A DNA stretch of 64,000 nt from Verrucomicrobiia bacterium (GTDB lineage: Bacteria > Verrucomicrobiota > Verrucomicrobiia > Limisphaerales > DASXHY01): the NCBI GenBank assembly GCA_035629175.1, contig DASPIL010000062.1, forward strand, positions 1 to 64,000. Direction: 5' to 3'. This document shows positions 5,426 to 59,323 of this stretch, piece after piece (the first letter of the stretch is position 1; each line of letters begins with the position of its first letter). The translations under genes were made by a program, and so were the position numbers. Below the pieces are notes generated by a model, which ran no database searches, was not told the origin of the DNA, and saw only the letters and a list, made by a program, of their open reading frames with translations.

Positions 5426-6796
5426 TCAGTTTCCTTTTGCCGGCATTGGTGCGATTCGCAATCGAAAGAACTTTTCAGACCCCAAGATCTGCACCATTGG
5501 ACGCCGCCACGCTCCGTCGCCCGCAGCCGTGCCTGTCGAATGCCAATCGCCTGTTTTGAGATCGGAAGTGAATTCGAGATCGTAAGCAAATCCCGGCTCC
5601 GTCGAATACGCAATCTGAAGGTCTTGGTCATCGATCGGTCGCAGGTGAAGAACGGACGGCGATGCTGCGCGTTCCGGATCAGAGGTGGAAACGGCGAGCG
5701 ATGTGATCACGAACTCCGCGGGGCGCGATTCGGCAACGCCGTAAAGAAGAATGGCCCGATGCTGCGCGATGTCGCCAGCCGTTGTGGTGGTCTCGTCACA
5801 ACGAACAAAGTACGCTTGTGAAGATGTGGTGCCCGCGAACGCGCCCTGCTGAAAAAGGGAGTGCAGGAAGTTTTCAGCCGCGGCGCGCAGCTGAGTCCAG
5901 AGCGGCGTTGCGTTGTGATTGGTGGCGGCAAATGCAACCGACCGTTGGATCGATGCTGCGATCCAGGATCGCGTGCGAATTGCGGCCAGTTGACGATTCT
6001 CAAGATCCTGGCGGTCCAGCGTGCGGGCGGACCAGGGCACGATGCCGGTGCCGGCAAAGTTGCGAATGGGATTTATATTGTTCGCCGCGAGCAGATCGGA
6101 CGCGGCGGAACTCACGATGGGCGTGGTGTTCGCGGCGTTGAGCGGATACGCGGAGCCCGCGGGAACATTCCATGGCGCTTGACCAGCGGCGCTGGTTGCA
6201 TGGATGGCAGCCATGGCGCCGGACGCCGCGACAGTCACAATTGCGCCGTTCAGGTTGAATTCCAGATAGGGAAAATAGATCGCGCAGTTTTTTGCATTGA
6301 GGGGCAACGCGGCGCCCGCCCATTGTATCATCGCTTCCGCGTTTGGTAATCCTGGTGGAGGATCAAGGATCATGAAAATCCTGCGTGGGTTCACGAAGGC
6401 ATGGAATATGGGGAATGCCGAACTGAACTCCTGCGCGTTGAGAAGTGCGAGTTCGGGAACGATCAACAGGCGGGTATTGCTTAACGGCGCGACGGCATTC
6501 AATCCTGTGAGCGCGTTCGAATCGCCAATCAGGTTGTCGTGCAGTGATCCTGTGTCGGTCACGCGAATCACGTGCAACGCGGCACCGCCGTTGGCGAAGA
6601 ATTGGCAGGCCTGGACTTCGGCCGGCCAACTTGCGGGATTGGTGGAACCAAACGTCGAATGGAATCCTGCTTCGTCGACCCACAGCGGAACTTCAAGAGG
6701 TCCGCGGGCGAAACGTCCGAGCAATACCGTCTCAGTGGCAGGCAACGGAGTGATTTCTTGCGCAACCGCGCGTGAGACGAAGGCCATCACAAACAT
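5426..6796 (-). CDS. Exported phage-tail-sheath-like protein with C-terminal FFRL module
   Basis: A protein of about 456 residues with an unexpected mix. The start (FVMAFVSRAVAQE) looks like the end of a Sec signal peptide. Residues about 20-85 resemble the tail sheath N-terminal region: LLGRFARGPLEVPLWV, an FGSTNPASW-like segment, then QFFANGGAALHVIRV. Residues about 235-370 resemble the sheath C-terminal domain: NPIRNFAGTGIVPWSARTL, then ENFLHSLFQQGAFAG, YFVRCDETT and PAEFVITSLAV. The last 80 residues match the C-terminal module common in secreted Verrucomicrobiota proteins (LEFTSDLKTGDW then KFFRLR). The frame is open to 7285, but the added N-terminus looks non-coding. The true start may lie upstream of the ATG at 6796 because the charged signal region (RNRSPSG) is in frame there. 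No other tail, T6SS or eCIS gene is in the window. Confidence 0.72.
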   Translation of the reverse strand: MFVMAFVSRAVAQEITPLPATETVLLGRFARGPLEVPLWVDEAGFHSTFGSTNPASWPAEVQACQFFANGGAALHVIRVTDTGSLHDNLIGDSNALTGLNAVAPLSNTRLLIVPELALLNAQEFSSAFPIFHAFVNPRRIFMILDPPPGLPNAEAMIQWAGAALPLNAKNCAIYFPYLEFNLNGAIVTVAASGAMAAIHATSAAGQAPWNVPAGSAYPLNAANTTPIVSSAASDLLAANNINPIRNFAGTGIVPWSARTLDRQDLENRQLAAIRTRSWIAASIQRSVAFAATNHNATPLWTQLRAAAENFLHSLFQQGAFAGTTSSQAYFVRCDETTTTAGDIAQHRAILLYGVAESRPAEFVITSLAVSTSDPERAASPSVLHLRPIDDQDLQIAYSTEPGFAYDLEFTSDLKTGDWHSTGTAAGDGAWRRPMVQILGSEKFFRLRIAPMPAKGN

Positions 6797-7027
6797 GACC
6801 GCTGCGACACAAACGAACCCCGACGGGGAACGGTTTCGAACTGTGATTTCATTTCGCGAGCAGTAGCGATGCTGTGAATTCTCTGCGGGAAGCACGCCGG
6901 AGAATACCCATGGATTATGACGATGACGAGCGCAATTGGTCTCCCGCGGGGCCCGCGGGTTGCGCCACGATTCAGAATGGAATTTCGGCTTTGTTCCCTT
7001 ACAAAAATCACGTAGAGAAGCAGAACC

Positions 7028-7516
7028 ATGACCACGAAGAAGAACACGATTTGCATTTGGTATGACCACGATGCGGAAGAAGCCGCGCGCTTCTACGCGA
7101 GGACTTTTCCCGACACCTCGGTTGGTGCTGTACTTCGGGCGCCGGCCGACTACCCAAGCGGCAAGGCAGGCGACGTCCTTACGGTTGAGTTCACCGTATG
7201 CGGAGTGCCGTGCATCGGCCTGAATGGCGGCGACGCGTTCAAGCAGACCGAGGCGTTTTCCTTTCAAATCGCCACCGAAGATCAAGCGGAGACCGATCGC
7301 TACTGGAACGCCATCGTTGGGAATGGCGGAACGGAGAGCGCGTGCGGGTGGTGCAAGGACAAATGGGGTGTGTCATGGCAGATAACGCCACGCGTCCTTT
7401 CTGAGGCGATGGCGAAGGGCGGCGACGTGGCAAAGCGCGCGTTTGAGGCCATGTTGGAAATGGGCAAGATTGACGTCGCCAGGATCGAAGCCGCCGTGCG
7501 CGGGGATGCCAAATAG
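7028..7516 (+). CDS. VOC-family (PhnB / 3-demethylubiquinone methyltransferase-like) protein
   Basis: A 162-residue small cytoplasmic protein of the vicinal-oxygen-chelate superfamily. The start TICIWYDHDAEEAARFYARTFPD is the standard opening of the PhnB/3-demethylubiquinone-3-methyltransferase-like group. The middle GVPCIGLNGGDAFKQTEAFSFQI and the later DKWGVSWQITP complete the two beta-alpha-beta modules. Despite the family name, members are mostly of unproven function and lack a methyltransferase fold. It is transcribed away from the sheath-like gene, with about 230 bp between them. Confidence 0.9.
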   Translation: MTTKKNTICIWYDHDAEEAARFYARTFPDTSVGAVLRAPADYPSGKAGDVLTVEFTVCGVPCIGLNGGDAFKQTEAFSFQIATEDQAETDRYWNAIVGNGGTESACGWCKDKWGVSWQITPRVLSEAMAKGGDVAKRAFEAMLEMGKIDVARIEAAVRGDAK

Positions 7517-54528: not shown

Positions 54529-57500
54529 TTATCTGGTCAAACGATAAAACGTCCCCGGAATGTTTTCTGAAACCGGCAAGACCAATTGCCATTGTCCGTC
54601 TATGATCTGCGGTGCCGGCGAGGTCACATTCAACCAGTCCCCGAGCACGAGGTTCGTGCGGGATTGAACCGTGAATCCGGCCGACGCCAATGGCCAGGTC
54701 ATCGTCAATGTCGTGGGTGTTGCGGCCACGCTGAGCGGCGGGTGGGCGTTGCTTAACAACTCGTTGGCACCCAGCGCGTGCATCGCGGCGATTTCCGCGG
54801 CCGTGTGCGACACACTGTAAATGCGGAACTCGTCGAACGTGGAATTCAAATACGCATCGCCTGCATATTGGGATCGCGCCAGGTAGTTGTTCACCGTGCT
54901 GCCCAGGCTCGCAGGCTTGAGTGTCAGCGCGTTGGTTCCCACCGGAACTCCGTTCAAATACAACGTTCCCGTGTTGCCGTTGAGCGTCACAGCGACGTGA
55001 TGCCAGACGCCCGCGCTCAAACTTGTGCTGCCATTGATCTGCTGCTCGCCGCCAGCACCGCCCGTCGTGATTGCAAACCGCAGGCGGCTCGTGCTTCCGT
55101 TTTGCGGCGTCAGGAACATGTAGCTCGTGGTGTTGTTTCCGAAATCGAAGATGCGCGTCCAGTTTGCGACGGAATTCAGACGAACCCACGTGGTGATCGT
55201 GAAATTGCTCAACGTACTGACGATCCCTGCCGGGAGTCTCACGTATTGTTGCGCACCGGAGGCGAGCGTCAATTGGCCGCTCGCGAACGTCCCGCCATTG
55301 AACACGGTTCCGTTCCAACCGAGGCCGCCCTCGGAATCTGCTGCGATCGTTCCGCCGGTCTCGCTAAAACTGTAACGGTGCGCCAACGCCGCAAGCGGCA
55401 CGGTGCTGAAGCTCCAGATTCGGCCCAAGTTGGTGTTGCCCCCGGCGATTTCGTCCACGCGCCAGTAATACGTGGTCCCGCCAAATAGTGCTGGCGTGAA
55501 CACGGTGTTGGTCAACATGCCCCTGAATTCGGGCGATGCAGCAGCCGCTTGCGCAACAGCGTTGGAACTTGTGCCGAGATAAATCGCGTGCGCCAACGCG
55601 TTGCTGCCTGGTAACCAACTTAACGTGGCGCTGAGCGGCACACTCGTGGCATTCACTTCGGGCGACGGATCGCTGGCCGCTCCCACATTGACAAATTTGT
55701 CCAACACCACCGTCGTCAGCGACGCGGGCGGCATCGTCAACTGGGATCCTGCCGCGCCAAGGAACTGAAACTTGTTCGTGCCGGCCGTTTGAAAGACGCT
55801 TGAGTTAACGAATGGAAATGAAGCGAAGTTGAGATCCACCGTGGACGTTGCGCTGCTGCTGCGATTGATGAATACCGCCACAAGGCGCAGGTTGTCCGCC
55901 GTGACGTATGCCGATACGCGCACATTGGGATCCGTGGCGCTCGCCGCGACCCGCCGGCTTCCAGGCGTGATGTAGTAGGAGAAATGTTTCATCGCCCAAT
56001 AGCTGGGCGACAGCCAGTAACCGCGCGACTGCGTCGGCGTTCCGGGCGGGGCATTGGTCCATTGAGCCTGATTCCATGGAAACTCAATCTGGATCAATCC
56101 TCCATCCGTCCCCGGCCAGATCAGGCTCCAGTGGTTGTATCCGCTGGCCAATCCTTCGGTCAGGCAGTTGTGGATCAACGTCGCGGAATCCACCATGTTG
56201 GAAACGCCGTACTCCGTCATGAAGTGCGGCTTGCCGGGGAAAATATTGGTGGAGGATCGCAGACTCCCGTTATAGCCATCGATCGTGCCATCGGTGCTGT
56301 CGCCATAAAGATGATACGCTACGCCGTAAAAATGATTCGGGTTCAACGTGGCCGCATAGTTCGCCAGCGTGTTGTAACGAATGTGAACCACTTCCGGCGC
56401 GAGAAGCTTTGGCGCCGACGGCAAATTCGTCAGCCTTGAATAGACCGCGTCGAGCGCCTTCGAATAGCTCGCGTAGTTCGTGCCATTCACCACACCTTCG
56501 GCCGGACGAAAAATGCACGAGTCATAGCTCGCTTCCCAGTCAGGTTCGTTCTGGATGCTGATCCATGTGGGTGAAACGCCAACGGCGCGATACGCGACCA
56601 GGGCGTCGTGCCAGTAGTTGGCAAACGCGCTGTAGGCAAAGCCGCCGTTCGTGAAGATCAGCGTCCCGCCGTTGCCGACCTGTCCGTTGCTTTTAAGAAA
56701 CGCGGGCGGCGCCCAAGAGCTCATGTAAACCGGCACCGGCCGTCCAAGGATTTGACTGGCGCGTGCAACAAATTCAGGGGCGTCGGGATCGAAGTTGGGC
56801 GTTCCCTGGTAGCGGAACCAGTTTCCCAGCCGCAGCATCGACAGGTTCAGGCCTGCAAAGGCGTTCGTATAAATCTCGTTCTTGTAAGGATGCGCCGTCA
56901 CCCATCCGTTGTAGAAGCAAATCGCGCCGCCGAACCCTTCAATGGTTTGAAACACATTACTCGTGTTTACCGTCGCGGTGGGCATGGGCGCCGTGCCCGT
57001 TCCGCCAGCGTCGAGATTCGCGACGGTAAAGTTGAAGCCCGATGGTCCAAATGCGAACTGGTCCAGGTCGAGGCCATCCTCGCGCGCGCCGATTTGAAAC
57101 GTTTGGGTCAAGCCGCCGGGCGGCACAGTAAACGTAATGGGCGTCTCTCCGCCGCCTGTCGTGAATTGCGATAGGTTAACCCATTTCCACACGCCGCCGC
57201 CCGCTTCCCCGCTGCCGGCAACGACTTCGCTGGGGCTCGCAAAACCCGCGATGGCGAGGCCGTTGACGAAAATCCAGTCTCCGTTCGACGTCGGGGATTT
57301 GGCGCCAAAACCATTCGCGTAAAACAAACTGTCGTCGTTAAATCCCCCGGGTCCGACACGAAGCCGTGCGTAAAGGTTGTAGGTGCCCGCCGCCGGGAAC
57401 GTGACCGTGTAACTCGCAATACGCGCAGCGCTGCCGGGATTTCCCGTGTTGACGTTCGTGGTCGATATCGAAACGAACTGCACACCGCCCGCGATTCCAT

Positions 57501-58917
57501 TGGTGAAGTTGGCTCCCAGCGTTGCCGACTCGGCTTCGATGGTTAACGGCGACGCGTTGCCAGTTCCCGAACCGTATTGAAATTGCCACCAGTTGAGGTT
57601 GAACAGTTCGCCGGGGCCGCCGCCAAATCGAAGATAAAGATCGTGCACTCCCGATGCGCCGCTGACTGCCGACGAGGCAATCGTCCATGTCTGTTCGTCT
57701 CCCGTGGAGGGAACGATGCATGTGCCCACAAGTGGGCCCGTCACACTATCCAGCCGCAACTCAACAATACCGCCGCTCCCCGCGCTGGCGACTCGCGCGT
57801 AAAACGCAGATGCTCCCGCGCCAAAATCCACGCCGCGGACACGAATCCACGAACCGTTGGTGATGAAAGTCACGTTCAGCCCGCCCTCGGAGCAAACTTC
57901 CGTGCGGATTCCACTTTGCCGATGCATGGTTTCCGCTTCAACACGGAGATACGGATTCACATTCTTAAGTTGCGCCAGGCCATCCGTTGTGGGCGTGACC
58001 TGCTGAATGGAACCGTCCGCGTTGTAATGGATTTGATCGACACAGATGCTGCGCTTGTAAACCGCCTGTGAATCGGGAAGGCCGTTCTGCAGGGCTGCGG
58101 CGCGGTTGTGATAGACGATGTACCAATTGCCTTTGAACGAAACCGTCGAGTGATGATTGTTGTTGAAGACGTTCTGCGGCGGATTCGCCAGGACGGTGCC
58201 TTGGGCGGCAAACCCATTCGTCGGATTGGAATTGGTGACGCAGCCAATCACCATGCCCGCGTTGGGCCGCGTGGAATAGGTGAGGTAATATTGGCCCGCG
58301 CGCTTGTGCATGTGCGCGGCTTCAAAAAAATCCGGGGTGTTCAGAGGTTGCGCGGACCCGCTCACGCTCGTCAGGTTCGGATTGAGCCTGATGACGCGCG
58401 AATTCGTGGGATATTGCCCGCCGAAATAGAGGTACGTCTGACCGTCATCATCAATAAAGGCGCCCGGATCAAACAACCATTGAGTCGAGGATGTTGCGCC
58501 CGGCGTCGAATGCGTGATCAGCGCGCTGCCCCGCGCATCGATGAAAGGGCCCGTCGGAACGCTGCTCGTGGCGACGCCAATGTTCCCCGCGCCATTTGCA
58601 AAATAGAGGTAAACCGTGTTTTGATTCGACACTGCCGACGGTGCCCAGGTGAGGTTCGCCCATGAAGTCGAATTCGCGCGAAAGACAACGCCGTGATCGG
58701 TCCAGTTCTTCAGGTCGTCGCTTGAGAAACAGGTGATCGACGACATTAAGTAGCCGTTCGTCCCGTTCTCGTCGTCGTTCGAGCAGTAGATGTAAAGCCG
58801 TCCGTTGAATTCCATCGCGGCCGGGTCCGCGGCGTAACGATGCGAAACGATTGGGTAATCCGCAAACGCCGTCACGGCAATGCCCAGCGCGAGCGTCATC
58901 AGGATGGTCTTGAGCAT
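54529..58917 (-). CDS. Giant secreted GH43-CBM6-GH30-LamG enzyme
   Basis: About 1462 residues if started at 58917 (MLKTILMTLALGIAVTAFAD, signal peptide; the ATG at 58962 is the alternative). Order: GH43 propeller (about 20-315; RYAADPAAMEFNGRLYIYCS, HSTVSFKGNWYIVYHN), a CBM6-type module (about 320-455; LRVEAETMHRQ, DLYLRFGG), a second CBM-like module (about 460-620), a GH30-like barrel (about 640-1045; TIEGFGGAICFYNGW, QNEPDW with acid/base Glu791, FMTEYGVSN with nucleophile Glu902), a linker/Fn3-like part, and a LamG domain (about 1178-1370) with the FFRLTR end. This joins an arabinofuranosidase- or xylosidase-like unit to a glucuronoxylanase-like GH30. The divergent region upstream holds CRP-like palindromes. 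Confidence 0.9.
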   Translation of the reverse strand: MLKTILMTLALGIAVTAFADYPIVSHRYAADPAAMEFNGRLYIYCSNDDENGTNGYLMSSITCFSSDDLKNWTDHGVVFRANSTSWANLTWAPSAVSNQNTVYLYFANGAGNIGVATSSVPTGPFIDARGSALITHSTPGATSSTQWLFDPGAFIDDDGQTYLYFGGQYPTNSRVIRLNPNLTSVSGSAQPLNTPDFFEAAHMHKRAGQYYLTYSTRPNAGMVIGCVTNSNPTNGFAAQGTVLANPPQNVFNNNHHSTVSFKGNWYIVYHNRAAALQNGLPDSQAVYKRSICVDQIHYNADGSIQQVTPTTDGLAQLKNVNPYLRVEAETMHRQSGIRTEVCSEGGLNVTFITNGSWIRVRGVDFGAGASAFYARVASAGSGGIVELRLDSVTGPLVGTCIVPSTGDEQTWTIASSAVSGASGVHDLYLRFGGGPGELFNLNWWQFQYGSGTGNASPLTIEAESATLGANFTNGIAGGVQFVSISTTNVNTGNPGSAARIASYTVTFPAAGTYNLYARLRVGPGGFNDDSLFYANGFGAKSPTSNGDWIFVNGLAIAGFASPSEVVAGSGEAGGGVWKWVNLSQFTTGGGETPITFTVPPGGLTQTFQIGAREDGLDLDQFAFGPSGFNFTVANLDAGGTGTAPMPTATVNTSNVFQTIEGFGGAICFYNGWVTAHPYKNEIYTNAFAGLNLSMLRLGNWFRYQGTPNFDPDAPEFVARASQILGRPVPVYMSSWAPPAFLKSNGQVGNGGTLIFTNGGFAYSAFANYWHDALVAYRAVGVSPTWISIQNEPDWEASYDSCIFRPAEGVVNGTNYASYSKALDAVYSRLTNLPSAPKLLAPEVVHIRYNTLANYAATLNPNHFYGVAYHLYGDSTDGTIDGYNGSLRSSTNIFPGKPHFMTEYGVSNMVDSATLIHNCLTEGLASGYNHWSLIWPGTDGGLIQIEFPWNQAQWTNAPPGTPTQSRGYWLSPSYWAMKHFSYYITPGSRRVAASATDPNVRVSAYVTADNLRLVAVFINRSSSATSTVDLNFASFPFVNSSVFQTAGTNKFQFLGAAGSQLTMPPASLTTVVLDKFVNVGAASDPSPEVNATSVPLSATLSWLPGSNALAHAIYLGTSSNAVAQAAAASPEFRGMLTNTVFTPALFGGTTYYWRVDEIAGGNTNLGRIWSFSTVPLAALAHRYSFSETGGTIAADSEGGLGWNGTVFNGGTFASGQLTLASGAQQYVRLPAGIVSTLSNFTITTWVRLNSVANWTRIFDFGNNTTSYMFLTPQNGSTSRLRFAITTGGAGGEQQINGSTSLSAGVWHHVAVTLNGNTGTLYLNGVPVGTNALTLKPASLGSTVNNYLARSQYAGDAYLNSTFDEFRIYSVSHTAAEIAAMHALGANELLSNAHPPLSVAATPTTLTMTWPLASAGFTVQSRTNLVLGDWLNVTSPAPQIIDGQWQLVLPVSENIPGTFYRLTR

Positions 58918-59107
58918 CGCTGCGATACTCTTCCGCACGGTGAACGTTAATGTCATTGTCATTTCGGCGCTCAGGCCGTCGATCGGACAGCCAAATTGGA
59001 GTTCACTGTCTCGACCGCAGGCGATGCGAAGCAGTTGAAGGACGCACAACAAGGCTGGGTGTGTGAACGGCTTGGCGCAATGTAGCCGACCGTCTCCGGC
59101 CCGGCCT

Positions 59108-59125
59108 ATACGACGAACGTCATAC
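59108..59125 (+). promoter_or_regulatory. CRP-like palindrome, copy 6
   Basis: ATACGACGAACGTCATAC, in the divergent region between the GH43-GH30 giant and the GH43 gene at 59324. TATCGC about 42 bp downstream is a weak -10 candidate for the plus-strand gene. Confidence 0.58.
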
Positions 59126-59177
59126 CCGGAGTTCCGAGCCACAGGCTTGCGCGCGTATCGCAGCTTCAAACCAGCCG

Positions 59178-59195
59178 CTATGACGTTTGTCGTAT
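59178..59195 (-). promoter_or_regulatory. CRP-like palindrome, copy 7
   Basis: CTATGACGTTTGTCGTAT on the plus strand, 71 bp from copy 6. Read on the minus strand it has GATACG about 30 bp downstream, suiting the giant GH43-GH30 gene. The paired sites suggest control of both divergent genes. Confidence 0.58.
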
Positions 59196-59323
59196 AGGAG
59201 ACGCCAAGGCCTTCATTTAGCGTCCGCACACATTCGCCTCATGTTTTCCGATTCCGTAATCTCGAATAGGAATTTGCCCGTCCGCACGCCAAACTCATCC
59301 GAAGCCCATTTCAAATCAATGCC

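Follow-up and report, generated by a model that had tools for sequence, protein, structure and literature searches.

A sheath-fold protein of Verrucomicrobiota, predicted to be exported and very probably outside any contractile injection system

Known contractile sheaths are leaderless and function as part of tube-sheath-baseplate assemblies. Both terminal segments of an R-type sheath subunit extend away from it and complete four-stranded sheets of adjacent subunits, which weaves the sheath into a mesh (PMC6088184; PMC8195476). In the sheath of the T6SS, the N-terminal strand is the inter-protofilament link, while the C-terminal strand is the intra-protofilament link between subunits (PMC5807055). 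The pre-assembled monomer of the diffocin sheath CD1363 shows the C-terminal strand folded back within its own chain (PMC6088184). No exported or solitary sheath is described in the freely accessible journal literature that we searched; one candidate paper concerned a different protein without a signal peptide. Here we analyze a sheath-fold gene from a 64,000-nucleotide stretch of a Verrucomicrobiia genome (contig DASPIL010000062.1, positions 1 to 64,000), hereafter the window.

Sheath homology and predicted fold

The gene occupies 5426..6796 on the minus strand and encodes 456 residues, counted from the in-frame ATG at 6796. By phmmer against solved structures, the window protein matches Pvc2 (E=2.9e-27) and the Streptomyces CIS sheath (E about 1e-26 to 2.7e-26), and it matches the PHROG tail sheath at 2.1e-30. 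Pfam assigns no domain to the window protein, the sheath models not reaching E 0.1, and PF04984 and PF17482 are matched by 26 of its 28 aligned relatives. Since the phmmer, PHROG and relatives' Pfam matches agree, chance is excluded as the source of this likeness.

The AlphaFold model of the mature protein, built on an alignment with 27 relatives, reaches pLDDT 95 and pTM 0.92, and Foldseek matches it to solved sheaths at 6.5e-24. Specifically, VIA-align superposes the Streptomyces CIS sheath on the model with Z 36.8 and rmsd of 1.8–1.9 Å over 323–332 residues, followed by R2 pyocin (Z 32.7) and contracted Pvc2 (Z 31.0). The initial annotation had called the protein sheath-like and had proposed fold prediction and comparison with contractile sheaths as the check; sequence searches and predicted structure both confirm that assignment. 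The sheath core (5723..6757, minus strand; mature residues 1–345) aligns with solved sheaths from their residue ~20 on, with residue ~1 of the model paired with sheath residue ~20 (R2 pyocin 18–363; Pvc2 21–338), so the N-terminal arm of sheaths has no counterpart in the model. The alignment ends at residue 345 against most assembled sheaths and at 356–359 against free-monomer crystals, which is weak evidence for a free monomer because monomer predictions tend to look like free monomers. Additionally, the family-invariant residues were inspected for a catalytic role, and they contain no catalytic-looking set.

Leader, linking strands and C-terminal module

The leader (6758..6820, minus strand) consists of a hydrophobic stretch and a predicted cleavage between VAQ and E, reading FVCVAAVMFVMAFVSRAVAQ up to the cleavage and E after it. 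The hydrophobic stretch itself, FVCVAAVMFVMAFVS, is followed by RAVAQ and, past the cleavage, E, immediately ahead of the sheath core. Under a plain rule based on hydrophobicity and cleavage, the window leader reaches a hydrophobicity of 2.94 (11 residues, extended frame) and of 1.85 when read from ATG 6796 alone. The scored exported members (six) range from 1.97 to 2.94, while the maximum across 28 ordinary sheaths is 1.80; in two members found later (L097 and L098) the leader was recognized by eye, and all eight members carry one. The signal-peptide-like start claimed initially is thus a Sec-type hydrophobic leader, by which the window protein would, on its sequence, exit the cytoplasm via the Sec route.

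The open frame around the gene spans 5426–7285 on the minus strand, and ATG 6796 is the first in-frame ATG near the sheath core, with no other in-frame ATG within 50 codons upstream. This start leaves 13 leader residues, and the true start may lie 5' of it because the hydrophobic stretch begins seven codons further upstream; farther upstream lie a GTG in the same frame (6895) and an ATG in another frame (6852). The leader would become longer, and would not be lost, if translation began upstream or if a base error lay between 6852 and about 6820. An upstream frameshift that abolishes the leader, which the initial annotation had listed as a refutation of its proposal, is ruled out: the hydrophobic residues share the reading frame of the sheath, and a clear leader is present in each of the seven orthologues. 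As a separate observation on the window copy (6796–6852), the short leader and the out-of-frame ATG 6852 ahead of it suggest a start or assembly problem.

Of 41 ordinary sheaths, 40 have the 'PGVYxEE' N-terminal arm, and none of the eight exported members does. The C-terminal sheath strand, or 'C-arm' (PAEFVITSLAV; 5687..5722, minus strand), was placed by sequence alignment and the model; with its PAEFxITSL motif of alternating hydrophobics it is kept in 8/8 members, which then continue into a further module. Past the PAEF strand, the exported members have 87–94 residues versus 10–17 in ordinary sheaths, two of which gave no PAEF match. Of the two T6SS-type linking strands, the exported proteins have therefore kept the C-terminal one and are without the N-terminal one. 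With the mesh arm replaced by a leader, a normal contractile sleeve is unlikely; with the C-terminal strand kept, chain-like polymerization has room. As a sheath, the window protein possesses the domain I core fold, the sequence homology and the C-terminal strand; it lacks the protofilament-linking arm and, given its predicted leader, the leaderless (cytoplasmic) state.

The C-terminal module (5429..5686, minus strand) is an FN3-like β-sandwich ending in FFRLR and common to about 20 other proteins of the genome. Residues 371–456 form a six-stranded β-sandwich (pLDDT 91). Its resemblance to FN3-like chains is weak, with a top VIA Z of about 7, which is below the level that separates kin from common β-sandwiches. 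Its consensus is G..Y.LE....L....W....GDG......FFRLR. A search of the window protein's own genome returned 46 module matches at E<=1, and among the best 20 of these, 19 other proteins carry the module right at their C-terminal end, no more than a few residues from the stop codon. Other long module-bearing proteins, for instance L036 11750–17485 and L037 178–6588, found with an HMM of the module, have leaders at their start. When PEP-CTERM and other named C-terminal sorting signals were considered for the module, no Pfam model covered it across 24 members, save two weak single matches, and the whole window protein had no relevant NCBIfam match. The initial description, a module of secreted proteins, holds as far as a shared module at the extreme C-terminus is concerned; its link to secretion comes from this distribution, which suggests that the module may steer surface placement or secretion.

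The module occurs at 46 places in the window genome (e.g. L077–L095) and at 54529–59229 of the window, at the C-terminal end of many proteins, and might serve as a sorting or anchoring signal in Verrucomicrobiota. Contig C103 of the same genome, at ~179162–179980, belongs to an 8124-residue open frame with weak internal module matches.

Family, selection and genomic setting

Members were sought in the window genome's own order (320 genomes), its class and phylum, the orders of two carriers and GTDB species contigs. These searches yielded seven further full-length members, eight in total, spread over at least three orders of one Verrucomicrobiota class: G265 (Verrucomicrobia subdivision 3 bacterium UBA693), G119 (RI_55), G190 (NC_groundwater_1051), G415 (Opitutales bacterium Super_Day6_Bin.11), G413, G1188 and G927. 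Occurrence is sporadic, with 4 of the 320 genomes of the order positive in a single-protein search. The exported members form one clade with 100/100 support in two trees, the first with six of them and the second with all eight, both computed without the module; the long stem branches (1.2–1.3 changes per column) point to a split that was either ancient or rapid. The search for leader-bearing sheath homologues in Verrucomicrobiota and the inspection of their neighborhoods, both proposed initially, thus returned seven orthologues of the same architecture with no shared neighbors across orders. A viral-contig scan gave a single distant match (23% identity over 200 residues), phage records held only ordinary sheaths at 24–29% identity, and what plasmid records contained was limited to sheath-family matches under 60% identity. 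These searches thus revealed no source of the exported form in phages or plasmids.

G413 and G1188, which share a genus code, carry intact syntenic sheath genes (L067 9401–10789 and L115 960–2342) beside genes that we take, from their sequences, to be homoserine-kinase-like, purE-like and purK-like. The two sheath proteins are 57% identical with dN/dS about 0.33, compared with 87–94% identity and dN/dS 0.06–0.12 for the neighbors; the sheath gene is thus constrained yet fast, although the Nei-Gojobori estimate is rough at this divergence. Recombination is possible, because dS of the sheath gene exceeds that of its neighbors. Within this one genus, the exported sheath shows protein change several times faster than that of its syntenic neighbors.

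One flank of the window gene holds a desaturase and LpxD, the other an unrelated small protein. No phage or CIS genes stand beside the sheath gene in the window or in the flanks of the other carriers, and no partner gene is shared across orders; serpin, NADH dehydrogenase-like, MIOX, Na-solute symporter, DUF1501, CotH/LTD protein, TrpA, LpxD and desaturase genes are met in one carrier or another. Tube, gp25 and baseplate-J genes (PF06841, PF04965, PF04865) were found neither in the window genome assembly (G000, 96% complete), which also holds no second sheath, nor in G190 (94% complete) and G413 (98% complete). The absence of tube and baseplate partners, noted initially for the window, therefore extends to whole assemblies. 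G265 and G415 have their own tube, gp25 and baseplate-J genes together with a separate ordinary sheath, and the sole match in G119 (56% complete) is to gp25.

Lone ordinary sheaths, with the arm and without leader or C-terminal module, were seen in two further genomes (L037 8628–9752 in G193, 85% complete; L069 8165–9286 in G496, 97% complete). Tube, gp25 and baseplate-J were not found in either, and these are possible solitary cytoplasmic sheaths.

Interpretation and comparison with known sheaths

Together, these data indicate with high confidence an exported sheath-fold protein outside any CIS. The proposal that it is a lone exported sheath with an adapted surface role gains support from the fold, the leader, the module, the absence of CIS genes and the seven orthologues, localization and role being deduced from these. 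Verrucomicrobiota have apparently, on a single occasion, turned a contractile-sheath subunit into an exported protein that stands alone. The full reading, that of an exported, non-contractile sheath-fold subunit acting without an assembly in a binding or scaffold role, is one towards which we lean modestly. Under this reading, the Sec route would carry the protein out of the cytoplasm, and the C-terminal module may contribute to its positioning on the surface of the cell or beyond it. Because the N-terminal arm that links protofilaments is missing, the six-stranded contractile mesh could not form, so that the protein would act as a non-contractile single subunit or small oligomer. Its task could then be binding or scaffolding in the envelope or the extracellular matrix, and its rapid evolution would be that of a surface protein; such a role appears most likely, as a guess by analogy with other module-bearing proteins.

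Polymerization is a different fate for an exported subunit. Through swapping of the C-terminal strand outside the cytoplasm, the subunits could form single protofilaments, fibers or a simple tube lacking an inner one, decorated with the module, and both the retention of that strand in every member and its role as the intra-protofilament link of T6SS sheaths (PMC5807055) speak for such assembly. However, loss of the N-terminal arm leaves one of two donor strands missing, swapping could be blocked by the module, which begins right after the strand, and the sheath initiator gp25 was not found in G000, G190 and G413; the longer fit of the model to free-monomer crystals (356–359 vs 345) also weighs against it, although a monomer prediction is expected to behave so anyway. 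We consider polymerization rather doubtful, and its most specific form, an extracellular fiber or tube that has neither inner tube nor baseplate and is built solely through exchange of the C-terminal strand, quite unlikely. If true, a polymerizing exported sheath would be an extracellular structural polymer of phage-tail origin.

The predicted sheath fold on an exported protein, its fast evolution relative to neighbors and its sporadic occurrence would also suit a surface decoy, receptor or inhibitor acting against incoming phage tails or contractile weapons. Sheaths, however, assemble within the producing cell, so an exported subunit would seldom encounter free sheath subunits, and no defense-type neighbors were seen in the carriers' flanks, which makes this role improbable. 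Still less probable is a working part of a CIS encoded elsewhere in the genome. Such systems do exist in G265 and G415, yet with their own ordinary sheath, and the gp25 match of G119 stands alone in an incomplete genome; the three nearly complete genomes G000, G190 and G413 have none of the tube, gp25 and baseplate-J genes, and the leader would remove the protein from the compartment in which CIS sheaths assemble. For the window genome this explanation is largely refuted. The awkward start of the window copy, with 13 leader residues after the ATG, would fit the remnant of a prophage or eCIS in decay, with a leader and tail of accidental origin; eight intact members of one architecture in at least three orders and one clade, synteny, purifying selection and the lack of adjoining phage or CIS genes contradict it, since the family is conserved, and leave it scarcely credible.

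The exported, non-contractile subunit that we favor would be a clear case of a phage-tail part co-opted for another task, its mesh arm exchanged for a leader and a module gained. The exported clade is also a natural test of which sheath elements a contractile mesh requires, and the protein is open to direct expression and imaging.

Compared with eCIS and R-pyocin-type sheaths (Pvc2, Afp2, the Streptomyces CIS sheath and R2 pyocin FIR2), the exported protein has the same core fold (Z 30–37) at 20–27% identity, and the C-terminal strand and many invariant residues (WGAR, PAG, NGG, FVxCD, PAEF) are common to both. Unlike them, it has no N-terminal arm and carries a leader and an FN3-like module, and its genome of origin lacks tube, gp25 and baseplate genes. 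Several residues near-invariant in ordinary sheaths are lost in the exported form, e.g. R206, K210, R273, E280, E293 and G346 (pre-protein numbering). The model aligns to residue 356–359 with the structures of the pre-assembled monomers CD1363 and Lin1278; CD1363, however, retains an N-terminal segment that refolds into the arm upon assembly, which is absent from the exported protein. The C-terminal module is as in other proteins of the genome, and here it is joined to a phage-derived fold.
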